From positions 1,240,001 through 1,304,000 of the forward strand of contig OZ024928.1 of NCBI GenBank assembly GCA_964017235.1: a DNA stretch of 64,000 nt. Direction: 5' to 3'. This stretch comes from Sabellastarte sp. h YS-2021. Taxonomy: Eukaryota; Annelida; Polychaeta; Sabellida; Sabellidae. Of the stretch, positions 3,276-63,055 are shown in pieces (positions within the stretch are counted from its first letter, which is position 1; every line of letters starts with the position of its first letter). A program made the translations under genes and the position numbers. Below the pieces are notes generated by a model. The model made no database searches, was not told where the DNA came from, and worked only from the letters and a program-made list of their open reading frames with translations.

Positions 3276-3440
3276 GTGAGTTGTGTGATGTAACAGATAA
3301 CACAACATATCAGTGAAATGCAACATAACAGGTGAGTTGTGTGATGTAACAGATAACACAACATATCAGTGAAGTGCAACACAATAGAGGAATTGTGTGA
3401 TGTAACAGAAACACAACATGTCAGTGAAATGCAACACAAC
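3262..3440 (+). repeat. 56-bp tandem repeat spanning an ATG2 splice donor
   Basis: Three to four units of about 56 bp. The unit contains the last bases of the upstream exon (TGCAACATAACAG), the donor GTGAG and the following intron. The first two units keep the donor at 3276 and 3332. The third has decayed to AGAGGAAT and the last is partial. Confidence 0.85.
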
Positions 3441-3494
3441 AGATGAATACAGTAACAGTATACAACACAATATATCCCAAACCTACTTTAATCA

Positions 3495-3640
3495 TACAGC
3501 TGTCTGGTCACACTGACCTCTAGTACTGACTTTATTTCAGGTTTTCAGTAAGCTACTGTGTGGTTACACTGACCTCTAGTACTGACTTTATTTTAGGTTT
3601 TCAGTGAGCTACTGTGTGGTTACACTAACCTCTCCAGCAG
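3495..3640 (+). repeat. ~60-bp intronic tandem repeat
   Basis: About 2.5 copies of a unit with TGACCTCTAGTACTGACTTT, ATTTCAGGTTTTCAGT and GAGCTACTGTGTGGTTACAC. Each unit has a pyrimidine-rich stretch and a TTTCAG|GTTT, so it could act as an acceptor. The real acceptor of the next exon is at 3736. Confidence 0.8.
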
Positions 3641-3736
3641 TCACCGTCTTTACACATTTTTTTCAGTGAAATTGAAGCCATGTTATTCCTGCGTTTTATG
3701 TTCCTTTCTTCTACTGGGTTTACTGTGTGTTTACAG

Positions 3737-3836
3737 GTTTGGGCGTGTGGGTAAACAGGGCGGCCCCATCATGAGGAGGGCACGGGGAGGACAAGGTCGT
3801 GACCTTGATGTACTCATGGAACTGCAGCTCTCTAAG
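3737..3836 (+). CDS. ATG2: ATG2 exon
   Basis: The acceptor is TTACAG and the donor GTCAGT starts at 3837. The exon encodes FGRVGKQGGPIMRRARGGQG, then RDLDVLMELQLSK, the basic segment before the conserved 'MELQL.KV.FQ.E.YP' run of ATG2. It ends on a codon boundary. The ORF that reads across the donor into the intron is not coding. Confidence 0.88.
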
Positions 3837-4249
3837 GTCAGTGAATTAAACAATTACATGTTTCGTATTTGTGGGATGTACGTGACATACTCACATGGTT
3901 ATATAGACTTACTAAAATGTCTTTCAGAGGTCAGTAAATCAAGTGTCACATAGTCTAGTGTAAAGTTGAATGAGATGTATGCATCAGACTGACAGTTTTA
4001 CATAAAGTCTCTTAGTTAGCTTTCAGAGGTCAGTAATTTAAGTATCACATTGCCAGGTGTAAATGGTCAGATGTTGTATTAGGGTTAGGCAGTGATGACA
4101 ACACAGGACTGGATGTATATGTGTGGACTGATGACATCACAGGATTGGATGTCAGTGTGTGGACTGATGACATCACAGGATTGGATGTACATGTGTATTG
4201 GATGACATAATGATTGAGTAAATTCTGTGTATTCTGTCTAATTCTATAG

Positions 4250-4417
4250 GTACGCATGCAGTATGAGCTGTATCCTGAACACACAGAGCAGTCCTCCCGC
4301 CAGATTCTAGTAATCAATGACATTGAGATGAGGGATCGACTGGCCAGCTCCAAAATCAACAAGTTCCTGTACCAGTATTCATCTGACAGCGTGCCCAAAC
4401 AGTCACATACACACATG
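4250..4417 (+). CDS. ATG2: ATG2 exon
   Basis: The acceptor is TCTATAG and the donor is ATG|GTGAGT. The 56 codons encode VRMQYELYPEH...ILVINDIEMRDRLASSKINKFLYQYSSD, a highly conserved ATG2 block ('E.RDRLASSQINKFLY'). The donor begins a 1.2-kb minisatellite whose unit repeats the GAGTAAC of the donor. Confidence 0.93.
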
Positions 4418-4429
4418 GTGAGTAACCGT

Positions 4430-5650
4430 AACACCCCCCACACACACTCCGAGTAACAGTCACACACACACCCGGAGTAACAGTCACACCCCCCACACAC
4501 ACCCCAAGTAACAGTCACACCTCCCACACATCCCGAGTAACAGTCACACCTCCCACACACCCCGAGTAACAGTCACACCCCCCACACACACCCCAAGTAA
4601 CAGTCACACACACACCCCGAGTAACAGTCACACCCCCCACACACCCCCCAAGTAACAGTCACACCCCCCACACACACCCCGAGTAACAGTCACACCCCCA
4701 CACACACCCCGAGTAACAGCCACACACCCCCACACACACCCCGAGTAACAGTCACACCCCCCACACACACCCCAAGTAACAGTCACACCCCCCACACACA
4801 CCCCAATTAACAGTCACACCCCCCACACACACCCCGAGTAACAGTCACACCCCCCCACACACCCCGAGTAACAGTCACACACCCCCACACACACACCCCA
4901 ATTAACAGTCACACCCCCCACACACACCCCGAGTAACAGTCACACACCCCCACACACCCCAAGTAACAGTCACACACCCCCACACACACACCCCAAGTAA
5001 CAGTCACACCCGCCCACACACCCCCCAAGTAACAGTCACACCCCCCACACACACCCCGAGTAACAGTCACACCCCCCACACACACCCCGAGTAACAGTCA
5101 CACCCCCACACACACCCCGAGTAACAGCCACACACCCCCACACACACCCCGAGTAACAGTCACACCCCCCACACACACCCCAAGTAACAGTCACACCCCC
5201 CACACACACCCCAATTAACAGTCACACCCCCCACACACACCCCGAGTAACAGTCACACCCCCCCACACACCCCGAGTAACAGTCACACACCCCCACACAC
5301 ACACCCCAATTAACAGTCACACCCCCCACACACACCCCGAGTAACAGTCACACACCCCCACACACCCCAAGTAACAGTCACACACCCCCACACACACACC
5401 CCAAGTAACAGTCACACCCCCCACACACACCCCGAGTAACAGCCACACACCCCCACACACACCCCGAGTAACAGTCACACCCCCCCAGACACACACACAT
5501 CCCAAGTAACAGTCACACCCCCACACACACCCCGAGTAACAGTCACACCCCCCACACACCCCCAAGTAATAGTCACACACCCCACACACACCCCAAGTAA
5601 CAGTCACCCCCCCACACACACACACACACACCCCAAGTAACAGTCGCCCC
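4430..5650 (+). repeat. C-rich minisatellite directly after an ATG2 donor
   Basis: About 40 copies of a 27-34 bp unit of the form CACACCCCGAGTAACAGTCA plus a variable C/A run. Variants AAGTAAC, AATTAAC and AACAGCC are present. The unit's GAGTAAC is also the start of the intron (GTGAGTAACCG at 4418), so the array probably grew from the donor region. A block of about 400 bp is itself repeated with an offset of 408 bp (4713 and 5121). The minus strand is strongly G-rich. Apparent ORFs here are repeat artefacts. Confidence 0.95.
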
Positions 5651-8322: not shown

Positions 8323-8675
8323 GTAAGTACTAAAACACACTGCTTGGTAAAGGTGGGTGTGCACTAGAGCTATACTCACTTGTACAGTTAGGTAAGTACT
8401 AAAACACACTGCTTGGTAAAGGTGGGTGTGTACTAGAACTATACTCACTTGTACAGTTAGGTAAGTTCTAAAACACACTGCTTGGTAAAGGTGGGTGTGC
8501 ACTAGAACGATACTCACTTGTAAGTTAGGTAAGTTCTAAAACACACTGCTTGGTAAAGGTGGGTGTGTACTAGAACGATACTCACTTGTAAGTTAGGTAA
8601 GTACTAAAACACACTGCTTGGTATGGCTGGGTGTGCACTAGAACTATACTCACTGCTAAAGTTAGGTAAGTACTA
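8305..8675 (+). repeat. 69-bp tandem repeat spanning an ATG2 splice donor
   Basis: Six donors TTAG|GTAAGT begin at 8323, 8392, 8461, 8529, 8597 and 8666 (spacing 68-69 bp). Each is preceded by a copy of the exon end ACTCACTTGTA. In the gene's frame a TAA follows each donor (GGT AAG TAC TAA), so use of a later donor would truncate the protein. Confidence 0.92.
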
Positions 8676-10009
8676 AACCTTGACATCCTACGTGCAGTGA
8701 CACCGCTGTATGAGTTACTGTTTCACTGGCCGTGTGTTCTCTGTACTGATTGTGTCAGTCCAACCGTCAGGAAGACTTACAGTAGATTGTCTCTGTGATA
8801 GTGACACACACTAAAACACAGATCATCTTATCAGTGGAGTTCTAACTTGGTGACGTGGGTTAGAACCTAGATCTGTTTGGTCCAGAGTATGTTTACTCAT
8901 TCGCTGACACATGGGGAGACACTTGACTAGCACTGCTGTGTGAATTTGTATCTTGTGTCTGATATTCAGTTTGATTACTTATTTGTGTACAGAGTCTCAG
9001 GTATTTATGGCTGCCTCTGCTTGATTTACTAACACTTTTGTGAGGAGTTTATTCCTCTCAGTAGGGGCTGGTGTGATGAGAAACTGATATCATTCCAATA
9101 AACACACTGTACAGCCATCCAGTTAACTACTGTGTTTACTGCTCAACTACATGTACACCCCCACCCCCCAGTCCATAACTCAGACTGCTCACCTACCCAG
9201 ATCCCTGCTGGAATTAGGCTGGTTCCCAGACAATCATACTGGGCCTTTAATGCATACAATGGACAGGTGTTATTAAGTGTTGCAGTCTGAGAGAGGGTGA
9301 TAATGGGAGATTTGGTGGATTTATAGGGAAGGAGACTGGGTGGTAGAGGGGTAGGGGAGAGATATGCTTTGATGTGTATGTTGATTAACAGGTGTATCTG
9401 AGGGAGATGTATTAGCTTAGAAGTGTACTAGTAAGGTGTAGGGGGGGGGGGGAGTATTATGACTGGGAGATTACTCGGGTATGTGTTATGATGGGGGAGG
9501 GGAGGGCAATGTAATTCAACACAATCTGGATCATAAACTGGACTTAATACTCAATAAAGTATTTATGACAACATTAATTCAGCATATTTTGTATCACACA
9601 GTGCAGGTTATGTCCAATCCCATCATAAATAGAGAGATATTTGACACTAGATGATTGACAGATGGAACTGTTTGGTTGTATGAGAGTGTGAAGTGACTGT
9701 GAATGTTTCCAGGTCTCACACACTGTAAGCTCATTGTATCAGTACATCAGTGTCTGGTTTGTGAGAGTTTGTCCAACACATCTATTTATGTGGATTTTCT
9801 GTAGTTTTAGAACAAAATATGTCAAAAAATAATTAAAATAAATACCACTAATTCAATACCTTATCCTTCAGAACTCGTCCCATCACACCAGACAGATTTC
9901 TGACTTTGTCAGTTTGAGGTCGACTTGGGGTCAAGTTTTTACATACTGGATGCTGATACAATGAGAATTCAGAGTGGTAACATGTCATCAAACAGGATTC
10001 CATACAAGC
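8676..10009. other. ATG2 intron, no feature seen
   Basis: Intronic sequence with a G homopolymer near 9442 and small low-complexity patches. No ORF, repeat family or RNA gene was recognised. Confidence 0.6.
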
Positions 10010-10569: not shown

Positions 10570-11212
10570 CCTTGTTTGACCCACATGACCAGGCCCCTAA
10601 TGGTAAGGGCAGAGCCACTGATCGTGGTCCCAAGTCTGCCAGGGGGCAGCAAAAAGGTCAATGACAATTACTGTTTGCATGTAAGTTCTGCTTGGAGTTT
10701 GTTCAGGGAGACCAGTGAGTTAAGGGTGTCAGTCATAACTGTGAATTATATTTTCAAACTGCTAATTCTCCGTAAATTGCACTCATCTTGTCTCCCCTTC
10801 ACCATTGTCTCAAGGGCCTCCACATAAGAGCCTGCACATTAGATAAAAAATAAAAGATGTCAAGCTTGATTCTTTTGTAAATCAATCCGTCTTTGCCCCT
10901 CTTGTTCAAAATGCCTCCCTGTTGTGTAAAATCTCCATGTGGTAGATTTTTGTCACAACACAGAAAATCAAAGGGTTTGAATAAAGAAAAGAGTCAGGGT
11001 TTGAAAATTATATCCAACCATCCTTTCATGTGTCCAAAGAATGTGTCCTCAAGAATGTTGTGACTCTTGAAGTCCCTTCAGACCGCCATAGGTGAACCAG
11101 AGGTTGCAGGTCCTCATCCTGTGGGAGGCAGGCTGCGAAAATTTTGGTAAGCCTGGGCCTCTCCGTGTTTGAGTCCAAAGTTGGTCTCAATTTTGAAGGA
11201 GGGCTACAACCT
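10570..11212 (+). mobile_element. DIRS retrotransposon relic (third lineage)
   Basis: A decayed fragment covering the Gag/RT boundary. A Gly/Arg/Lys-rich Gag tail (GRATDRGPKSARGQQKGQ) ends in TGA, followed by CAATTACTG, at about 10657-10669. Further on, one frame reads LFKMPPCCVKSPCGR (Cys-rich segment) and another reads VGGRLRKFW and PKLVSILKEGYNL (start of the RT region, 11115-11212). It is abruptly joined at 11212 to the end of a different DIRS copy. Frames are broken. Confidence 0.7.
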
Positions 11213-11464
11213 GTCAATTGCTAATCCGGTCGGCACAGACCGGCCCGCCAAACATCAGAAAAAGACGTCCTGTGTTTCCACCGGCCAGCCGGTCCCAGTA
11301 CTGTGCACTCGCCAGGTGGCGCATCGTACTTCCTTCCTGTTTAGACAGCGTGACGTCATAGCATCTTTTTCGTTTGGCGCATGTTCTGTGCACACAGAAT
11401 TTCTGTTATCACGAAAATTGTTGGAATTCTTGTGAATTTGATTATTTTATATATTTTATATTTT

Positions 11465-13235: not shown

Positions 13236-13275
13236 TCATCCCGACCAGCCAAGGGCCAGCAGTCGTATAAATGAC

Positions 13276-15340
13276 AATCACTGATTAGACAAGTTACAGG
13301 TACGACTGCTGGCCGGGAGCTCACCAAGAAAGACATTTACTGGTCAGTTATCAGAGACACATGTAAACTTTCCTGCTGTAACACATGTTCATTCTGAAAC
13401 CGGGCTTCCACAAAGGAAAAATGATTATCAATTAAAATATGTCAAAGGTGTTTCTTGTGTCACTCAATTGTCTTGTGTAAAACCTGTAACAAATGTCCAA
13501 AATGCTGCCTTAAATCTGCCTGTAGGGGCGACACTTCAAACATTTTGGCAAACTTGGCTGAATCTGGTTGCCAGTCTGAAAGTAGTTCAGATCCTGAGAG
13601 AGGGCTACACCCTCCCCTTTCGGATCCGGCCAAATCTCACAAGGTCTCCCACAGTCATAAGCTGTTATGTCAATCCCCACAGGAACCTCTACCTGCTGGA
13701 GGCATTACATCAGCTTATAGACAAAAAAGCAGTAGAGCTTGTACAGAATCAAAGATGTCTGGGGTGTTTCAACCGACTTTTTCTAGTGCCAAAATCCAAG
13801 AACAAATGGAGACATATACTACATCTTAGCAAACTAAATCTTTTTCTCAAGGCGGAAAAATTCAAAATGGAGACACCAGAAACCATCGGGACATCCCTCC
13901 AACAAGGGGAGTGGGTTACCTCAATAGACTTCAAGGATGCCTACTTCCACATACCAATACAGGAACAGTCCAGGAAATGTCTGAGATTTCATGTAGAGGG
14001 CCAGACATACCAGTTCAAGGCACTGCCCTTTGGTTTGTCCACAGCACCCATGGAGTTCACTGTGGTAGCAAAGGAGGTGAAACTGATGGCCATACACAAG
14101 GGTATAAGAATCCCCCAGTACCTAGACGACTGGTTGGTGAGAGCCACATCCCACCAGGTTTGTCTCCAGCATACACAGGATCTGGTAAGGATGTGTCAGC
14201 AACTGGGTTGGCTGGTGAACTTAGACAAATCAGAACTGGAACCCAAGAAGGTTTTTAACTTTGTAGGTTACCAGTTCGACCTCAAGTCCGGTCGGGTCCA
14301 ACCTACACCGGACCGGTGGCAAAACCTTCAAGAGAAAATACTGAAACTGCTATCCCTACCGGCCTGTCCGGTCCGGGAACTCATGTCCTTGATAGGTTTA
14401 TTAACAGCCACAGAAAAGCAAGTTCACCTAGGTCAAATGCACATGAGACCCATACAGTGACATCTCAAAAACAATTGGAGGGTACCCGAATCACTAGAAA
14501 AGGTGATCCCAATTCCCAGGTCCCTGCACCCCCATTTACAGTGGTGGCTAAAAGAGGACAATGTTCTCACATGTCAACCATTACACCCAATAAAACATGT
14601 TCTGCAGATCTTTACAGACACATCAAAAGAAGGGTGGGGCACTCACTTAAATGAGCACACTGCACGAGGTCCCTTCCAGAAAGCAAGCTGCATATAAATT
14701 ATCTAGAACTCAAAGCAGTTTTTCAAGCCTTAAAAGAGTTCCAGGGTCTCTGCTCAGACAAGATAGTTCTTGTAGCAACCAACAACACCACAGTGGTGTC
14801 ATATATAAACAAGGAGGGAGGCATGAGGTCGGGTCCACTTTGTGCCCTACTGTGGAGAATCTTGACTTGGTGCACCAGGAAACAAGTGACTCTCAAAGCC
14901 TGACATATTCCAGGCTGGCTCAATGTGGTAGCAGACAAACTATCCAGGCTAGGCCAGACCATCCAAACAGAGTGGTCTCTCCTTCCAGAGGTTTTCCAAG
15001 CAATATGCAGCAGGTGGCACCGGCCCCAAATAGATCTATTTGCCACGAGGTTTAACAACAAGTTGCCCTTGTTTGTGTCACCGGTACCAGATTCCCTGGC
15101 CACAGCAGTGGATGCACTCAGTCTGCCATGGTAGGATCTGGACGCATACGCCTTCCCACCAGCAGCCATATTGGGCAAAGTGGTGGAGAAGTTACAGGAC
15201 TCCCCATGCAAGACAATCATTCTGATTGCTCCGGGGTGGCCCCATATGCCTTGGTTCTGGGATCTAGTGGCCATGTCCAGCCAAATCCCACTGAGCCTGC
15301 CCAACCTGTTGACACAGCCATTCAGTCAGATCCCTCACAG
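13276..15340 (+). pseudogene. DIRS B1 RT-RNase H-MT, disrupted
   Basis: The longest open part, 13468-14460, encodes VGATLQTFWQTWLNL, LREGYTLPF, DLKSG and a complete-looking reverse transcriptase core with SIDFKDAYFHIPI, LPFGLSTAPMEF and YLDDWLV (YxDD box intact). It ends at a stop after HMRPIQ. RNase H (FTDTSKEGWGTHL, altered) and methyltransferase-like segments (LIAPGWPHMPWFWDLV) follow in other frames with further stops. The overlapping frame upstream carries a Cys-rich run (CHSIVLCKTCNKCPKCC). Confidence 0.88.
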
Positions 15341-52560: not shown

Positions 52561-52789
52561 GAAAAACCTTTGACATATTTTAATGCACAATCTTTTTGTA
52601 TTACATCTGACAAGCCAAGACTTATTCCTTTCCTTTGTGGGAGGCCCGGTTGCAGAAGGAACAAGATTTCAACAAGAGATTTTACATGTCTCTGTGAAGA
52701 CTGAACAGTTAGTGTCTTTCTTGGTGAGCTCCAGGCCAGCAGTCGTTGTCTGTAAGTTGGTTAGTAATGGTTACACAGTAATTGTCATT

Positions 52790-56237: not shown

Positions 56238-56566
56238 GGTAAATTGCAAATTTAATAAGTACATTAAATTTTTTTAAGTTAATACCCTATCCAATGGACA
56301 AATGCTATTCCGGTCGGCGCAGACCGGCCCGCCAAACGTCAGAAAAAGACGTCCTGTGTTTCCACCGGCTAGCCGGTCCCTAGTACTAATGCACTCGCCA
56401 GATGGCGTGTCGAACCCCCTTCCTCTGTAGACAGCGTGATGTCATAGCATCTTTTTCGTTGTCTAAACCTATTAGACCCCTAGTAAGCTGATAGCGGGGT
56501 CGGTGGGAGGGTCTTGTGTGTCCATTGGATAGGGTATTAACTTATAAAAATTTAATTTACTTATTA
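56238..56566 (-). repeat. DIRS family-B terminal repeat (element B3, 3' end)
   Basis: Same sequence type as 48706-49035: AATACCCTATCCAATGGAC, GACGTCCTGTGTTTCCACCG, TAGCATCTTTTTCGTTGTCT, CTGATAGCGGGGTCGGTGGG, GTCCATTGGATAGGGTATT. The rest of B3 resumes at about 62767 on the far side of element A. Confidence 0.88.
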
Positions 56567-56900
56567 AATTGCAAATTTTAATTAGTAAATTAAATTTGTA
56601 TTAGTTAATACCTTACCTACCAGACGATAGCTATAGCCCGGCGCCAGCCGGTCCCGCCAAACGAAAGAAAAAGACGTCCCGGGTTTCACCCCCGGCAGGA
56701 CCGGCACACTACAATCCACTCGCCAGGTGGCCTAGTTCCTGCCTCACTCGCCAGAGGGACGTGACGTCATAGCATCTTTTTCGTCCCTAAGATTGAATGA
56801 AGGCTGGAAGCGGGGAAGGCCGGGTGGGAATTTCCCGTCTGGTAGGTAAGGTATTAACTAATAAAAATTTAATTTACTAATTCAAATTTGCAATTTCATT
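56567..56900 (-). repeat. Element A 3' terminal repeat with palindromic edges
   Basis: The outer edge ATTAGTAAATTAAATTTGTA and TTAGTTAATACCTTACCTAC is mirrored at the inner edge by GTAGGTAAGGTATTAACTAA and AAATTTAATTTACTAAT (about 56844-56881). Between them lies the 173-nt arm shared with the 5' end plus about 60 nt found only here. Confidence 0.88.
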
Positions 56901-56935
56901 GCGTTAATACATCTTACCTACCAGACGATAGCTAG
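56878..56935 (-). repeat. Element A internal complementary region
   Basis: TTGCAATTTCATTGCGTTAA, TACATCTTACC and AGACGATAGCT match, in inverted orientation, the outermost 5' end at 62722-62771 (AGCTATCGTCTGGTAGGTAA, GATGTATTAACGCAATGAAA). A copy of the element edge placed internally is the hallmark internal complementary region that DIRS elements use to complete their ends through a circular intermediate. Confidence 0.8.
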
Positions 56936-57054
56936 AATAACTACCCAGTGGAAGGAGGGCAGCCTTCTGAGGATTGGAGAAACTCTTATATTATACTTAG
57001 GTGTGAGGTTCTAGTCCTTTGAGGAGACATGTTAGTCTCAAGGGTAACTAGACC

Positions 57055-57080
57055 CACCTGCCCCCCCCCCCCTTTTTGAC
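57055..57080 (-). promoter_or_regulatory. Purine-rich tract after the recombinase ORF
   Basis: On the element's sense strand an A5 run is followed by a G run of about 14. The family-B copies carry the same A-then-G tract at about 49229-49245 and 62959-62980. It resembles the polypurine tract of LTR elements; a role in DIRS is not established. Confidence 0.4.
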
Positions 57081-57282
57081 TGCTCTGAGGGGAGGAAGAG
57101 AGTAAGAGTTCAAGTCAATGATTCCCACGGTTAACCTGGAAGAGAGGGAAAGTCCTATACCCAGAGGATTACTCTGAAGTAAAAGACTTTGAGAAGCCAA
57201 GGCCTAGGCTAAAAGTGAGCCTACACCTAAAACTGACTAGTATGTACACTATATATAATTATATACAAAGAAGCTTAGGGGA

Positions 57283-60200
57283 CTAGTGGTGGATTTGCTG
57301 GGCAGCCACCACAGGACCCAAGTGAAAAAGCTCCTTATCTGCCCAGGCAACATCCTTAAGGTAAAACTGTGTAAAGGTGTTGTGGGACTTCCAGTGGCAT
57401 GCTGCTAGAATCTGGTCCAGAGATATGCCACCTTGAAAGGCTTTGGAGGCCGCAAAGGCCCTAACATCATGGGCCTTAACCTGATGTAAGGTCAAGGAAT
57501 CTTGGTCAGAGAGATCATAACACAACACTACTGTTTGTTTGATCCAGGACGAGATAGTGGCAGGAGAGATGTCCTTGTTAAACCCTTGTTTGAATGAAAC
57601 AAAAACTAACTCCTTTCCCGTTCTTAGGTCCTGCGTTTTGTCCAGGTAGTAGCGAAGAGCCCGAACGGGGCAAAGGGATCTGTCTTCCTTTAAAGCCTTA
57701 TCCAGAGTGGGGGCTAAGGCTGGAATGACCACAGGGGCCACGCACTCTGGTCCCTCTTTTGCCAAGTGATTTTTCGCCAAGAAACTTGGTGAAGGGTAGA
57801 GGGAAACTTTGGACCAGTCAGCTTGGTGTCTGATATTTTTGTTTAACCAAGCGTGAATCTCACTCCTGCGTTTTCCTGAAGCCAGGGCTAGGAGAAAAAC
57901 AGTTTTGAAAGTAAGGTGCTTCAGAGAAGCCTTTCTGAGTGGTTCAAAAGGCGCTTTTGTAAGCTGGTGTAAAACCAGGGAGAGGTTCCAAGCAGGAACC
58001 CCCCGGCGCCCTTTGGGTCTATCTCTGTGAAAACTGTCTAACAGTCTAGTCAAATTTTCATCCTTGCCGACATTAACCGAGGTATTTCCCAGTTTGTCTG
58101 CAATGGCTGACCTGTAACCATCAATAGTGCTGGGCTGGAGATTCTTCTCCTGGAAAAGGTGCAGGAGGAAATCTGCTATTTGTTTTATAGATGGGTTCCT
58201 GAAGTCCACCTGACTTGTTTCACACCATCTGACAAAAACGGCCCACTTCGCTTCGTAGACTGTTCTGGTTGAACGTCTTTGAGGCGCCTCAATTCTTGAC
58301 GCCACTGGGCTAGAGAACCCCTGCTCCTTGATTGTCTGGGCTCTAGGAGCCAGGCATGGAGATTTAGGTTTGTCAGATCCCTGTGACGTGCCTTGTTGAA
58401 AGGTTGGGTCACTAGATCTGGGTGGTGTGGAAGACAAAGAGGAACCCTCACAGATAGTTCCACTAGGTCCCAAAACCAAGGCATGTTGGGCCATCCCGGG
58501 GCAATCAGGATTGCTCTGCGATACCAGTGATCTGACAGCTTGCTGACCACCTTCCCCATCAGAGACACTGGGGGGAAGAGGTACATGTCCAGGTCCTCCC
58601 AGGATAATGTCAGAGCATCCACTGACCAGGCCTTTGGGTCTGGAATTGGGGACACAAATTGAACTAGCTTGCAGTTGTACCTTGTTGCAAACATGTCCAC
58701 TCGGGGATAATGCCAGGTTTGACAAAGGAGGTCGAAGGTCTCTTGATGGAGGGACCACTCCGTCTGAATGACCTGTCTTTGGCGAGACAATTTGTCTGCA
58801 ATTACATTCAGACGGCCTGGAATGTGTCTGGCCTTCAGTACTATTTGATTGAGGCTGCACCAACATAGGAGCCGCCAAAGAAGGGCACAGAGTGAGCCTG
58901 ACCTCATACCCCCTTCCTTGTTGATGTATGCCACAACCGTGGTGTTGTCTGTGGCAATCAGGACGACCTTTCCTTGCACTAAATGTTGGAATCTTTTTAG
59001 TGCTAACAACACGGCTTTTAGTTCTAAGAAGTTTATGTGCAACTTGCTTTCGGGCACTGACCAAGTACCGCTTGCTGTGAAGTCGCCTAAGTGAGCACCC
59101 CAGCCTTCTTTTGAGGCGTCTGTAAAGATTTGAACTGCGTGTCGCAGGGGGTGTAAGGGCTGACCCTTTAGGACATTTTCCTCTTGGGTCCACCACTGCA
59201 GGTACTGATGGAGAGACCTCGGAATTGGGATCTCCTTTTCCAGAGATTCTGGGACTCTCCAGTGTTTCTTGAGGTGCCACTGAATAGGTCTCATGTGCAG
59301 TCTGCCTAGGGTCACCTGTTTTTCTGTCGCAGTGAGAAGACCTATAAGAGACATGAAAGTTCTCACTGGGCAAGATCTGTTCTGTAAAAGCACTGTTATT
59401 TTCTGTTGAAGGGTTTCCCAACGATTTTGAGTAGGTCTGACTATTCCGTTGAGTAGGTCGTACTGGTAGCCTACGAAGTCGAAGACTTGTTGGGGTTCCA
59501 GTTCTGATTTTTGCATGTTTACCATCCAGCCCAACTCCTGGCAGAGGGCTAGGAGGGATTGGGTTCCCTGGTGGCAAGATTCTTTGGTAGGGGCTCGAAT
59601 CAACCAGTCGTCTAGGTACTGGTGGATTCTTATACCCTGTGACTGAGCCATTAACTTGACCTCTTTGACCACACCAGTGAACTCCATGGGAGCTGTTGAC
59701 AGGCCAAAGGGAAGTGCCCGAAACTGGTACGACTGGTTCTGAAAGTGGAACCTGAGGAATTTTCGGGATGTGTAGTGAATTGGGATGTGGAAGTAGGCGT
59801 CGCTGAAGTCTAGCGATGTCACCCACTCCTCTTGTTGTAGAGAGGTCCGGATTGTCTCTGGAGTCTCCATTTTGAATGTTTTTACGCATAAAAACTGATT
59901 TAGAGTACTGAGATCCAAGATTGGCCGCCACTTGTGGTTCGGCTTTGGGACAATGAACAGTCTGTTGAAAAAGGCTAGTGAGGTTTGAACCCTGACCCTC
60001 TCTACTGCCTTTTTCTCGATCAGAGCTTGTACAGCTGCTTGCAAGTGGGAGTCTCTGATGGGGTTTGCATAGCCACTTACTATCAGGGGATCCCTTACTA
60101 AGGGAGGTCTTACTTTGAAGGGAAGAACATAACCCTCCTTTAATATGGACACTACTTTTGGGTTTGCACCCTTGTGAGCCCATATTTCCCAAAAACTCTG

Positions 60201-60495
60201 AAGACGTCCCCCCACTGGTTGGACACTTGCAACATTGGGGACATTTGGAACATTTGGAGCAGAAACAAAGTGACCGACAAAAGAAGCACTTTTCACACAC
60301 TTTATTTGACTTTTGATCTTTAATTTTGGTCTTACGTCTTTCTTTTGCGACTGCCACCTTGTTACAGTAGGTACACGACATACAACATGATAAGAAACAT
60401 TTGTTGGAACAGATACAAAAGAGTTTCTTGTTATGACACTTTGTACAGAACTGACTGGCCGGGCCACCGGCACCGGACTTGACTTGCAGTAATTG
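57283..60495 (-). CDS. DIRS A Cys-rich / tyrosine recombinase ORF
   Basis: Open from the codon after the Gag stop (60495) to 57283, about 1070 codons. The first internal Met (MSCTYCNK) is at 60381 and gives 1032 residues. The C-terminal part is a tyrosine recombinase with all catalytic positions: SGKRRSEI (Arg838 counted from that Met), HDVR (His971, Arg974), HW (His996) and FTQFY (Tyr1007). The N-terminal ~90 codons after the stop are extremely Cys-rich (19 Cys, e.g. FCICSNKC, CEKCFFCRSLCFCSKC, CPQCCKC) and look metal-binding. The region between (to about residue 732) overlaps the RT ORF in another frame and may be passive. This frame is the Gag frame, so stop readthrough at 60496-60498 would give a Gag-recombinase fusion. 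Internal initiation is the alternative. Confidence 0.9.
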   Translation of the reverse strand, partial: QLLQVKSGAGGPASQFCTKCHNKKLFCICSNKCFLSCCMSCTYCNKVAVAKERRKTKIKDQKSNKVCEKCFFCRSLCFCSKCSKCPQCCKCPTSGGTSSEFLGNMGSQGCKPKSSVHIKGGLCSSLQSKTSLSKGSPDSKWLCKPHQRLPLASSCTSSDREKGSREGQGSNLTSLFQQTVHCPKAEPQVAANLGSQYSKSVFMRKNIQNGDSRDNPDLSTTRGVGDIARLQRRLLPHPNSLHIPKIPQVPLSEPVVPVSGTSLWPVNSSHGVHWCGQRGQVNGSVTGYKNPPVPRRLVDSSPYQRILPPGNPIPPSPLPGVGLDGKHAKIRTGTPTSLRLRRLPVRPTQRNSQTYSKSLGNPSTENNSAFTEQILPSENFHVSYRSSHCDRKTGDPRQTAHETYSVAPQETLESPRISGKGDPNSEVSPSVPAVVDPRGKCPKGSALTPPATRSSNLYRRLKRRLGCSLRRLHSKRYLVSARKQVAHKLLRTKSRVVSTKKIPTFSARKGRPDCHRQHHGCGIHQQGRGYEVRLTLCPSLAAPMLVQPQSNSTEGQTHSRPSECNCRQIVSPKTGHSDGVVPPSRDLRPPLSNLALSPSGHVCNKVQLQASSICVPNSRPKGLVSGCSDIILGGPGHVPLPPSVSDGEGGQQAVRSLVSQSNPDCPGMAQHALVLGPSGTICEGSSLSSTPPRSSDPTFQQGTSQGSDKPKSPCLAPRAQTIKEQGFSSPVASRIEAPQRRSTRTVYEAKWAVFVRWCETSQVDFRNPSIKQIADFLLHLFQEKNLQPSTIDGYRSAIADKLGNTSVNVGKDENLTRLLDSFHRDRPKGRRGVPAWNLSLVLHQLTKAPFEPLRKASLKHLTFKTVFLLALASGKRRSEIHAWLNKNIRHQADWSKVSLYPSPSFLAKNHLAKEGPECVAPVVIPALAPTLDKALKEDRSLCPVRALRYYLDKTQDLRTGKELVFVSFKQGFNKDISPATISSWIKQTVVLCYDLSDQDSLTLHQVKAHDVRAFAASKAFQGGISLDQILAACHWKSHNTFTQFYLKDVAWADKELFHLGPVVAAQQIHH

Positions 60496-60587
60496 TCATT
60501 TATACTGTGTCTTCTCATGAGCCATCTTGGTACCACGTCCGGGTTGACCACCCCGGCCTCTGCCCCGGCCTCTATTGCGGGAACCAA
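58185..60587 (-). CDS. DIRS A reverse transcriptase-RNase H-methyltransferase-like protein
   Basis: 800 codons from the first Met, overlapping Gag by 92 nt in the +1 frame. The conserved part starts VGGRLQSFWEIWAHK (about 125) and LKEGYVLPF. The RT core has SLDFSDAYFHIPI, LPFGLSTAPMEF and the YLDD box (324-327). RNase H follows with FTDASKEGWGAHL (Asp490), FLELKAV (Glu522), ATDNTT (Asp547) and VIADKLS (Asp598), a complete acidic set. The last domain (about 625-710: DMFATRYNCKLVQFVSPIPD, FPPVSLMGK, LIAPGWPNMPWF) corresponds to the Dam-like methyltransferase domain reported in DIRS elements, with FPPV in place of a classic DPPY. The start is uncertain; frameshift from Gag or reinitiation is possible. 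Confidence 0.92.
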   Translation of the reverse strand: MVPAIEAGAEAGVVNPDVVPRWLMRRHSINDNYCKSSPVPVARPVSSVQSVITRNSFVSVPTNVSYHVVCRVPTVTRWQSQKKDVRPKLKIKSQIKCVKSASFVGHFVSAPNVPNVPNVASVQPVGGRLQSFWEIWAHKGANPKVVSILKEGYVLPFKVRPPLVRDPLIVSGYANPIRDSHLQAAVQALIEKKAVERVRVQTSLAFFNRLFIVPKPNHKWRPILDLSTLNQFLCVKTFKMETPETIRTSLQQEEWVTSLDFSDAYFHIPIHYTSRKFLRFHFQNQSYQFRALPFGLSTAPMEFTGVVKEVKLMAQSQGIRIHQYLDDWLIRAPTKESCHQGTQSLLALCQELGWMVNMQKSELEPQQVFDFVGYQYDLLNGIVRPTQNRWETLQQKITVLLQNRSCPVRTFMSLIGLLTATEKQVTLGRLHMRPIQWHLKKHWRVPESLEKEIPIPRSLHQYLQWWTQEENVLKGQPLHPLRHAVQIFTDASKEGWGAHLGDFTASGTWSVPESKLHINFLELKAVLLALKRFQHLVQGKVVLIATDNTTVVAYINKEGGMRSGSLCALLWRLLCWCSLNQIVLKARHIPGRLNVIADKLSRQRQVIQTEWSLHQETFDLLCQTWHYPRVDMFATRYNCKLVQFVSPIPDPKAWSVDALTLSWEDLDMYLFPPVSLMGKVVSKLSDHWYRRAILIAPGWPNMPWFWDLVELSVRVPLCLPHHPDLVTQPFNKARHRDLTNLNLHAWLLEPRQSRSRGSLAQWRQELRRLKDVQPEQSTKRSGPFLSDGVKQVRWTSGTHL
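60490..60498 (-). promoter_or_regulatory. Candidate stop-codon readthrough site
   Basis: On the sense strand the Gag stop reads AAA TGA CAA TTA CTG. CAATTA fits the CARYYA consensus that promotes readthrough after a stop codon (as in tobamovirus UAG CAA UUA). No in-frame stop follows until the end of the recombinase. Other DIRS copies in the window read TGACAATTACTG (about 10659, 52770) and TGACAATCACTG (13275), all fitting CARYYA. Confidence 0.6.
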
Positions 60588-62493
60588 ACGCTTTCCAAGC
60601 TGGTAGTTCCTTTCCGGCTTGAGAAGTTGTTTTAGCAGTGTCTTGAGGTTTCCAACCAGTACTGTAGGGTTGGTATCTCTGTTTTCTGCCTCTACCGGCG
60701 AACCCCCCGCGGCCCGGGCCGGGCTGGGAAGTACGTCGGGAAGCTTCTAATTGGTTTATTTCATCCTCAGCTTTTCTAATAGCAGCATCTGGAAATAGCC
60801 CATATCCATTCAGGGGGCAATTTCTCAAGGAATTGAAAGTATCTGGTTTAATCCCCGGTTTCACAGCTTCCAAGTATGAATCCCTACGGAGTAGGGTCAA
60901 ATTTGCCATCTGCACAAATGTAAAGTCTGCCAAATGTTGTAGAGATTTACCCATGGCGAAACTGACATTCTGGTTAAATGAAGATAAATACAAAAGTTCA
61001 TCCAATGCACCTTGAGCTTTGACAGAAGACTTGCCTTTCTTAAGTTCACTTTGTAAGATATGCAATTGTTCTTGGAAGGCATCCTGTATCTTGGTAATAC
61101 AGCGATTAAACCCCGCTGACTGGTTGCAAATATATGAAGACTCTTTTGCTGCTTTCTCCCACTTACGCATAGTGTCTTGTGATAGTGGGCGGGATGGAGG
61201 CTGAGGAGATGCAGAAGATATGGTTGAAATCCTGGGGAATGAACTATTTATCTTCGCCGCATCATTTGGCCAAGAATTCACTGATTTACCCGGCCTAGTT
61301 GGATCTGTAGGCTCCGCCGGGTGTATCCCATACCATCTGCTCTGGGATTTGGGGGGTCTGAGGAATTGGTCCACATGCAGGCCACCTGGATCACTAGATT
61401 TTGAAGGATAACCTTCTATCAGTACAAGGTTTAGAGTCTCTAGTTTTCGGCACAACCAATCTTCCGGAGGAAGATCCACAGAAATCTTGCCCACAGGTTG
61501 CGAACGGTGACCTGCCCAAGGATTATCAGTGCGGGATTGAGGAGAAAACTCCAGGTCAGGAATGTGTGTCCATCCCATGAACGCGCGGACGCCTCTCACA
61601 GTCTCGCGGTAATTTTGATCTTCACTGAGGACCCGGTCCGGGTCTGAGGTTTCTAAGTCTGGGGATTCCTCTGCGTCAGATAACTCACCCTCTTCAAATG
61701 TTTCCTGAGGATTGACATCGCGGAAGGTGACCGGCCCGGAGCCGGAAGAAGGTTGTTGAAATGCAGCTTGAGAGGAAGCAGACATAGCAGCTGACGACAC
61801 AGTAGCCACCGGAGCAGGGTGTTTAAACATAGGTTCTGCTTCCGGGTAGAGGTTTTGAAGTGGAGATTGTCTGTCAGCAATTGAAAAATCCTGATCTCTA
61901 GGCTCATCCGGGCCAACAGCCGGACCGGCTGGGCCGGAAGAAGCCGAAGTAGAGACAAAAAAGGGTGTCTGGGAAAGAGCACCTGCTGGAGCAGCATGAG
62001 AGACCGGAACTTTGACCGGAGAAAATGTTGGATTTTGTACAGGTGAGGAGCGATGTCCTAAAGTGATAAGCACCTCAAGCCTGGCCATACGAGTGGCCCA
62101 CTTTTCGTCTAGTTCCTGAAGATCTTTCTTAAACTGAGGCACAGGAAGGGACAAATCCGGAGCAGGAGAAACAGATACAGCAGGTTCTTGTTCTGGTTGG
62201 GCATCAAGTACTACCACAGAAGACGGATCGACTAACACTTCCTTTGCTTTAGCCTTTTCCTTTCTGAGTTTATAGGTAGGAGTACTTAACTTGAGCACTT
62301 GCTCCGGGGTAAGGACACTGCAAAAGTCACACTGCAGATTCTGAACACAAGGGTCATCACCCTGTCCTTTCTCGCGACAACGCGCACACCTACTATGTTT
62401 GTCAAATGAAGCCATAATATGGCCACACGCACCCTTTTTCTGTCCTGGAGATGCCATGATAGAACAGTTAACTAATGGCAACACTTCCGACAC
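60496..62493 (-). CDS. DIRS A Gag-like protein
   Basis: 665 codons from the first Met; the second Met (MASPGQKKG, residue 13) is the likelier start because the B2 copy begins MSSPGQK. A Cys/His cluster (CGHIMASFDKHSRCARCREK..C..LQCDFC, about 23-58) looks zinc-binding. A Pro/Ser/Ala-rich middle follows, then the conserved core EEGELSD, NYRETVRGVRAFMGWTHIPD, PPEDWLCRKLETLNLVLIEG, PKSQSRWYG. The C-terminal tail is Arg/Gly-rich (GPGRGGFAGRGRKQ, RNRGRGRGRGGQPGRG), typical of RNA binding. It should package the element RNA. It ends KTQYK, then TGA in a readthrough-type context. Confidence 0.92.
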   Translation of the reverse strand: MSEVLPLVNCSIMASPGQKKGACGHIMASFDKHSRCARCREKGQGDDPCVQNLQCDFCSVLTPEQVLKLSTPTYKLRKEKAKAKEVLVDPSSVVVLDAQPEQEPAVSVSPAPDLSLPVPQFKKDLQELDEKWATRMARLEVLITLGHRSSPVQNPTFSPVKVPVSHAAPAGALSQTPFFVSTSASSGPAGPAVGPDEPRDQDFSIADRQSPLQNLYPEAEPMFKHPAPVATVSSAAMSASSQAAFQQPSSGSGPVTFRDVNPQETFEEGELSDAEESPDLETSDPDRVLSEDQNYRETVRGVRAFMGWTHIPDLEFSPQSRTDNPWAGHRSQPVGKISVDLPPEDWLCRKLETLNLVLIEGYPSKSSDPGGLHVDQFLRPPKSQSRWYGIHPAEPTDPTRPGKSVNSWPNDAAKINSSFPRISTISSASPQPPSRPLSQDTMRKWEKAAKESSYICNQSAGFNRCITKIQDAFQEQLHILQSELKKGKSSVKAQGALDELLYLSSFNQNVSFAMGKSLQHLADFTFVQMANLTLLRRDSYLEAVKPGIKPDTFNSLRNCPLNGYGLFPDAAIRKAEDEINQLEASRRTSQPGPGRGGFAGRGRKQRYQPYSTGWKPQDTAKTTSQAGKELPAWKAFGSRNRGRGRGRGGQPGRGTKMAHEKTQYK

Positions 62494-62570
62494 AAATTAC
62501 ACAGATATAACACAATATAAAAACTAAAGAGTTCACAGATAAAAATCCACAACTTTAAATATCGCGCCAA

Positions 62571-62766
62571 ACGAAAAAGATGCTATGACGTCACGTCCCT
62601 CTGGCGAGTGAGGCAGGAACTAGGCCACCTGGCGAGTGGATTGTAGTGTGCCGGTCCTGCCGGGGGTGAAACCCGGGACGTCTTTTTCTTTCGTTTGGCG
62701 GGACCGGCTGGCGCCGGGCTATAGCTATCGTCTGGTAGGTAAGATGTATTAACGCAATGAAATTTG
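62571..62766 (-). repeat. Element A 5' terminal repeat
   Basis: ACGAAAAAGATGCTATGACG to GGTAGGTAAG (62571-62743) is the exact inverse of 56612-56784. The outer 20 nt GATGTATTAACGCAATGAAA match the internal complementary region. It lies about 75 nt upstream of the Gag start and probably carries the promoter; no TATA box is evident. Confidence 0.9.
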
Positions 62767-63055
62767 CAATTTTATTGCGTTAATACATCCTATCCAATGG
62801 ACAAATGCTGAATAACTACCGCCTGGTCGGCGGGTAAGCTACTAGGGACTTAGGTGAACTCATAACAGAACTAACAAAATTTCCTTTCAGGCCTGGGTCG
62901 ACCTTGAGGTCAGAACCCATAAGGCTACAGTAGGTTACCGGAAACCGGTTAACCGATTTACCCCCCCCCCCCCTTTTTTTAACAGACCTGCTCTGAGGTA
63001 GGGGAAGAGAGGGCTGAGTTCAGTCCCATAATAAGAAGAAACAAGACCACTGCCG
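62767..63055 (-). mobile_element. DIRS element B3, remaining 3' internal part
   Basis: ATTGCGTTAATACATCCTAT, CCAATGGACAAATGCTG, CTACCGCCTGGTCGGCGGGT, a C/T tract and GACCTGCTCTGAGGTAGGGG match 49025-49320 of B2. The copy stops at about 63055, where another repeat begins, so B3 is only an end fragment split by element A. Confidence 0.85.

Follow-up and report, generated by a model that had tools for sequence, protein, structure and literature searches.

How does a retrotransposon express a tyrosine recombinase (YR) whose reading frame is joined to that of Gag across a stop codon and then runs beneath a reverse transcriptase (RT) gene? This question is raised by a DIRS-like element on the reverse strand of the window, by which we mean the whole 64,000-nucleotide (nt) stretch of Sabellastarte sp. 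contig OZ024928.1 analysed here, and for which an earlier note had proposed low-frequency readthrough of the Gag stop. We found, as that note had claimed, that the Gag frame ends in AAA TGA, continues with CAA TTA CTG CAA and stays open as far as 57283, and that Gag and YR occupy one reading frame with a single TGA between them; the whole frame comprises 1737 codons (666 + 1 + 1070). The distance of 2112 nt that had been given from the Gag start to the YR methionine was not reproduced, while the shared frame is correct; the first in-frame ATG after the stop, at 60381, lies 692 codons (2076 nt) downstream of the Gag ATG. The sequence tests that we ran favour the readthrough interpretation for this group of families, and we consider it likely that programmed readthrough at UGA-CARYYA makes a fusion of Gag, a cysteine-rich (Cys) segment and YR.

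The context of the stop recurs both within the window and across the genome. The 12-mer TGACAAT(T/C)ACTG, reported earlier for four copies in the window, occurs there exactly four times (at 10662 and 13272 on the forward strand and at 52787 and 60498 on the reverse strand), each time about 250-460 nt upstream of RT homology, and base counting predicts about 0.015 exact matches in the window. A looser scan of the window with up to 2 mismatches found 17 places against a shuffle mean of 17.04, which is no excess, and the three other window copies (A, B and C) are decayed and are weak evidence by themselves. We searched the 1.79-Gb assembly (647 contigs) with a query that joined the Gag tail to the Cys segment, with X in place of the stop, and scored the best 150 of 14,518 candidates. 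Exactly one stop, a TGA, lies across the Gag-Cys region in 149 of these best 150 copies and none in the remaining one, and the surrounding frame spans 1715-1745 codons in 65 of them.

Eight RT-linked junctions were obtained without use of the DNA motif. Three (L039, L043 and L047) were met in twenty 10-kb pieces sampled at fixed intervals along contig C1, and five (L052-L056) were picked by hand from 300 places listed in two RT-protein searches. AAA TGA CAA T(T/C)A was present in six of the eight, namely L047 and L052-L056. Since the RT queries behind the latter five came from families known to carry the core peptide Asn-Asp-Asn (NDN) in the RT frame, these junctions are only partly independent, and they say more about the silent positions and the Gag frame than about the core. 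We aligned the six with five junctions found by motif (the window element, referred to as D, the window copies A, B and C, and L007 of a second family, F2) and found that positions -2 to +7 and +9 are invariant (AA TGA CAAT, then A), that +8 is T or C, and that flanking positions vary. UGA is the stop in all 11 junctions, and the T-to-C variant, CAATCA, is among them and still fits CARYYA, as the note had pointed out. Where families were compared, their RTs are 68-79% identical to that of the window element (P0201 and P0161 against P0003). Together, these findings suggest that the stop and the hexamer are conserved as nucleotides. Ten of the 11 junctions have TAT or TAC and then AAA (Tyr-Lys) immediately before the stop; the identity of the P-site codon is described as affecting both termination and readthrough and as able to steer the frame (PMC9841425; published work is cited here from the available parts of each paper).

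Since the RT-frame peptide across the junction is set by the nucleotides of the stop and hexamer, predicted proteins provide a second view of it. We read Tyr, His and Gln as YAN codons and Asn and Ser as AAY and AGY, with AGY assumed for Ser; the peptide gives no information on the hexamer's first base. Read in this way, TGA-CAR-YYA is matched by 147 of the 149 predicted RT-frame proteins that a junction pattern recognised as spanning the boundary; NDN followed by Y, H or Q accounts for 137, NDSY for 8, and SDSY, ADNY, NDYY and NNNY for one each. In a 54-member set (below 70% identity), the four core columns measure 0.27, 0.13, 0.45 and 1.04 bits, and the columns flanking the core 1.75 to 3.61 bits. 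We also inspected 35 proteins without NDN and part of a further 48 whose anchor is absent or lies more than 80 residues in. Apart from the variants just given, P0307 (see below) and P0308, which carries the motif in the third frame, they appear to start beyond the junction or to have been rearranged.

The note had also allowed that conservation might be due to the overlapping RT frame (NDNYC). In the strict form of this explanation, that peptide alone is selected and the stop context is a by-product. The RT frame does span the junction in the 149 proteins with an NDN-like core, but we regard this explanation as very improbable, since the RT-frame residues on either side are far more variable than the core, and the substitutions seen, Y/H/Q and N/S, are those that nucleotide selection predicts. 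In addition, the second Asn is AAT in 6/6 of the motif-free junctions that have the core, whereas AAC is commoner than AAT in the RT frames (16 versus 10 in D and 17 versus 13 in L047); the constancy of GAC at the junction says little, as GAC is common anyway. Downstream, the ratio of nonsynonymous to synonymous differences (pN/pS) shows weaker constraint in the RT frame than in the Gag frame. The CARYYA-type variation and the better-conserved Gag-frame codons thus weaken the peptide explanation.

The Gag-frame codons in question encode the Cys segment, which is reached only after the stop. In an alignment of 30 proteins chosen from 120 matches listed, the window's protein included, C67, C73, C79, C82, C85 and C89 are invariant and C37, C38, C41, C44, C70 and C88 nearly so, with some rows starting after the first Cys. 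We compared seven families (D, L047, F2, L052, L054, L055 and L056), leaving out the broken or decayed L053 and window copies A, B and C, and found that pooled pN/pS after the stop rises from 0.63 for the Gag frame to 0.84 for the RT frame and 1.08 for the third. The Gag-frame value was below the RT-frame value in 20 of 21 pairs of families, which share members and are not independent. By this measure, the post-stop Cys codons are under purifying selection in the Gag frame. The first Gag-frame methionine after the TGA is codon 35 in L047 and L052, codon 39 in D (where seven Cys precede it), codon 70 in L056 and codon 107 in F2, past the Cys segment, and there is none in the 86 codons examined in L054 and L055. 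Since the conserved Cys codons have no AUG of their own, ribosomes coming from Gag are suggested. The Cys pattern indicates that the segment probably binds metal; a search of PDB sequences gave no match for the segment (E up to 1) or for alignment A1 (E up to 0.01).

Beyond the Cys segment, the Gag frame avoids stops throughout its overlap with RT. In D, the overlap contains 0 Gag-frame stops, compared to a mean of 31.8 and a minimum of 15 in 4000 synonymous shuffles of the RT codons, and the same was true of L047 (0 versus a mean of 32.4) and of the 489-codon overlap of F2 (0 versus 18.8), with 2000 shuffles each. The third frame, on the other hand, has more stops than expected (63, 64 and 40 in D, L047 and F2 versus shuffled means of 48.3, 46.2 and 31.9), so it is the Gag/YR frame in particular that is poor in stops. 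The independent family L047 has the same layout: after TGA CAA TTA its frame stays open for 1072 codons, as far as the end of YR, and its RT is at +1. In the protein database, 336 homologues of the continuation were found at E up to 0.001 among 7998 candidates scored, and predicted proteins of about 1030-1090 amino acids in the Gag/YR frame are common among the matches listed. Stop avoidance supports a long frame under selection, and not readthrough alone; readthrough from Gag to YR would give a reason for keeping the YR frame open along the 2.3 kb under RT.

It could be argued that YR instead has a start of its own or is translated from a spliced mRNA, and that the open frame upstream is historical. 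Genomic DNA cannot reveal splicing, and half of 28 annotated DIRS elements, molluscan ones included, are described as being without a long open reading frame (ORF) overlap (PMC3266345). We give this explanation very little credence, since stops are avoided along the entire overlap and Cys codons are conserved ahead of the first methionine. Both findings suggest translation entering from Gag, and a splice that removed only the stop would not need CARYYA.

In-frame readthrough would deliver YR, and RT, being in the +1 frame, would have to be reached by some other event. An RT-frame methionine lies 3-6 codons upstream of the junction in D, F2 and L055, is first met 62 (L047) and 56 (L054) codons downstream of it, and is absent in L052 from 75 codons upstream to 86 downstream. 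A +1 shift at the Gag stop would explain why no RT-frame methionine is conserved near the junction. This raises the possibility that what is conserved is a +1 frameshift site, AAA-UGA-C, which makes Gag-RT, and that the fit to CARYYA is incidental. The RT frame is indeed +1 and open across the junction, and weak stops are described as serving both readthrough and frameshifting, with the P-site codon able to steer the frame (PMC9841425). As the sole explanation we nevertheless think a frameshift site improbable, since it leaves unexplained both the selected Cys codons after the stop and the stop-free Gag frame to the YR end, and since the variation of the hexamer follows the CARYYA pattern. A combination is less improbable, though we put it forward only tentatively and doubt it on balance: a three-way switch in which one leaky stop would yield Gag, Gag-Cys-YR or, by a +1 shift at AAA-UGA-C, Gag-RT/RNase H. 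If true, one codon would fix how much shell, polymerase and recombinase are made relative to each other, and the enzyme frames could overlap with both entered at the same point. Two other candidates for RT expression were set aside. Openness of the RT frame 5' of the junction, from which an upstream shift might be inferred, is uninformative, since shuffled sequences are also stop-free there, and RFKIAP at the corresponding place in P0053 argues against a shared G-run as the site of a frameshift before RT (AGG GGG ACG in L047 and F2, GGG GGG ACG in D).

Several observations weigh against readthrough, or against its generality. The best 150 genomic copies are 99-100% identical and hence not independent. 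The peptide tally is conditional on the core pattern, so departures can be missed, and those seen are NDYY, which reads (C/T)TA after the stop, NNNY, which reads TAA, and P0307, which reads NANY and lies outside the junction pattern. L053 has the motif, but its TGA is followed 32 codons later by another Gag-frame stop, and the frames of this copy are disrupted. The sequence flanking the gag UGA of Candida Tca2 is reported to be insufficient for readthrough in Saccharomyces cerevisiae (PMC2194720). Pseudoknot-free folding of 121 nt 3' of the stop gave a z of -0.18, with no structure beyond chance, and RNA structure as a stimulator of readthrough is not supported. Finally, L039 and L043, two of the three substantial RT matches in the twenty-piece sample (the third being L047; L035 gave a 29-residue scrap), are the two motif-free junctions without CARYYA and belong to a different, decayed DIRS lineage. 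The check proposed in the note, for a stop, CARYYA and an open frame in related elements, was borne out in divergent families of this group but not in the L039/L043 lineage. The NDYY protein is P0255, whose peptide implies UGA (C/U)UA at the junction; UGA CUA is a readthrough context named for alphaviruses (PMC4132726).

Since L039 and L043 are without the hexamer, at least one DIRS lineage of the genome does without the device. Neither has a Cys segment, and in L039 a TAA precedes the TGA by 72 codons. The copy in L039 is at about 3310-4510 (+) of that piece, with TGA at 3575 in CAA TGA TTC, and the one in L043 at about 8540-9740 (-), with TGA at 9483 in CAA TGA CTC; in both, Gag and RT are in one frame, and this lineage possibly has another readthrough arrangement, one leading into RT.

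How would readthrough work in the window element? We infer the event itself, its frequency, the role of the Cys segment and entry into the particle, as follows. The Gag stop would be programmed for readthrough in the manner of the tobamovirus hexamer, with UGA as the stop codon: AAA-UGA-CAA-(U/C)(U/C)A. The majority of ribosomes would terminate at the UGA and release Gag, whereas a minority would insert an amino acid there and continue in frame through the Cys-rich, probably metal-binding segment, cross the long stretch under the RT gene and finish after the YR. The product, Gag-Cys-spacer-YR, would be made at a low ratio to Gag and could join the particle via its Gag part. Published work is consistent with readthrough at such a stop: CARYYA is described as functional also at UGA (PMC3542737), an OPRL1 reporter with CARYYA gave similar readthrough with UGA and UAG, about 15% (PMC4132726), and in tobacco mosaic virus CAR-YYA alone is reported to direct readthrough (PMC2194720).

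The closest known systems are the type I readthrough stops of tobamoviruses and benyviruses, which likewise have CARYYA directly after the stop and a conserved in-frame coding extension. The present case differs in that the stop is UGA and not the usual UAG, that the host sequence is a retrotransposon in a large eukaryotic genome, that the extension carries a recombinase, and that readthrough is predicted here from sequence. The junction would thus work like type I without being a typical member, its stop being UGA and not UAG. In murine leukemia virus (MuLV), a single in-frame stop after gag also parts Gag from an enzyme, but there the stop is UAG with a 3' pseudoknot (PMC3542737), whereas here it is UGA with a hexamer, and the enzyme fused is YR and not RT. 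The hallmarks of the MuLV type (type III), UAG and a compact 3' pseudoknot, were not found, as the stop is UGA and the pseudoknot-free fold has the z given above. Candida Tca2 shares an in-frame UGA between gag and a downstream enzyme, but a potential pseudoknot is described for it (PMC2194720). Compared to DIRS1-like elements, with which it shares Gag, RT/RNase H, YR, inverted terminal repeats and a long RT/YR overlap, the window element stands apart in that its YR frame is the Gag frame and in its Cys-rich segment and conserved leaky-stop context.

The RT/YR overlap is already described for DIRS elements; in the available text of Piednoel 2011, a long overlap is present in half of 28 elements, none of them from Mollusca (PMC3266345). 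A search for literature on DIRS elements with readthrough or ribosomal frameshifting, with older subscription DIRS papers outside its scope, found nothing pertinent. The word "readthrough" is absent from the available parts of PMC3266345, PMC2685390, PMC9210276, PMC6681497 and PMC3783388, and "frameshift", the only word searched for there, from those of PMC5633606. In these sources we did not find readthrough, a YR frame shared with Gag, the Cys segment or the leaky-stop context described, and the expression of overlapping DIRS frames is left unexplained in the portions of the literature examined; UGA-CARYYA offers a testable answer for YR. If readthrough is true, a YR retrotransposon joins the cases of hexamer-type readthrough, the recombinase is predicted to travel as a Gag fusion, and selection on the stop-free frame under RT is accounted for. 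Since the genome holds at least 150 near-identical junction copies, RNA or peptide tests should be feasible.

Table 1. Features of the DIRS-like element and of the further junction copies in the window
Feature	Position	Strand	Basis or remark
DIRS-like element, inverted terminal repeat to inverted terminal repeat	56612..62743	-	arms 56612-56784 and 62571-62743
Gag ORF	60496..62457	-	ATG 62457 to TGA; open frame 60496-62496
TAT AAA just 5' of stop, P-site codon AAA	60499..60504	-	10/11 aligned junctions
Gag stop codon TGA, proposed readthrough stop	60496..60498	-	lone TGA across Gag-Cys in 149 of best 150 copies
CAATTA hexamer, fits CARYYA, directly 3' of stop	60490..60495	-	CAATTA/CAATCA in 11 aligned junctions
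Open continuation of Gag frame	57283..60495	-	1070 codons + stop, ends with YR
Cys-rich segment, Gag frame, encoded only after stop	60223..60447	-	conserved Cys columns, pN/pS
Tyrosine recombinase, SAM-like N-terminal and catalytic domains	57355..58272	-	Pfam matches of relatives
RT/RNase H frame	58185..60746	-	853 codons, +1 relative to Gag, 2.3 kb overlap with continuation
Junction 12-mer, decayed DIRS copy A	10662..10673	+	weak RT homology 11124-11351
Junction 12-mer, CAATCA form, decayed DIRS copy B	13272..13283	+	Gag-frame Cys motif still legible
Junction 12-mer, decayed DIRS copy C	52776..52787	-	motif match and RT homology

The window element has three features of DIRS1-like elements: a YR ORF, RT and RNase H without a DDE integrase, and inverted terminal repeats. 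Its inverted arms are 173 nt long, 100% complementary and 5786 nt apart, and its outer ends are not fixed to single-base precision. Towards the 3' end there are two further inverted pairs (I2 and I3), which are compatible with the internal complementary regions and circular junction of DIRS1-like elements, with the termini approximate. Among its proteins, RT/RNase H (P0003) matches RVT_1 (E 4e-22) and RT_RNaseH (E 1.1e-6), and at E up to 0.1 P0001-P0003 matched no Pfam family of DDE integrases or proteases. The Gag ORF matched no Pfam family above its cut-off. As for the methyltransferase-like domain that follows RNase H in DIRS1-like elements, no Pfam methyltransferase exceeded its cut-off in the element's proteins. 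The YR enzyme takes up only the last 300 or so codons of the continuation frame. Phage_integrase was found in 28/30 relatives (E up to 0.01) and Phage_int_SAM_1 in 21/30, and the Pfam matches of the window's own YR-frame protein, P0002, are weak and below Pfam's cut-offs. An AlphaFold model of P0002 with alignment A1 has a mean predicted local distance difference test score of 34.6 and is confident only at about 740-820.

Relatives in external DNA were looked for by scans of viral contigs (with P0003 and alignment A1) and of genome contigs (with A1), which gave none. Within the assembly, AARTGACAATYACTGCAA has 752 exact copies (371 forward and 381 reverse), with 0 for the reversed control, and the DIRS expansion in this genome is apparently large and recent. 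At the outer edges of the terminal arms of the window element lie imperfect hairpins, one at 62723-62809 with 42-nt arms (76%) and a 3-nt loop, and the other at 56530-56615 with 39-nt arms (90%) and an 8-nt loop.

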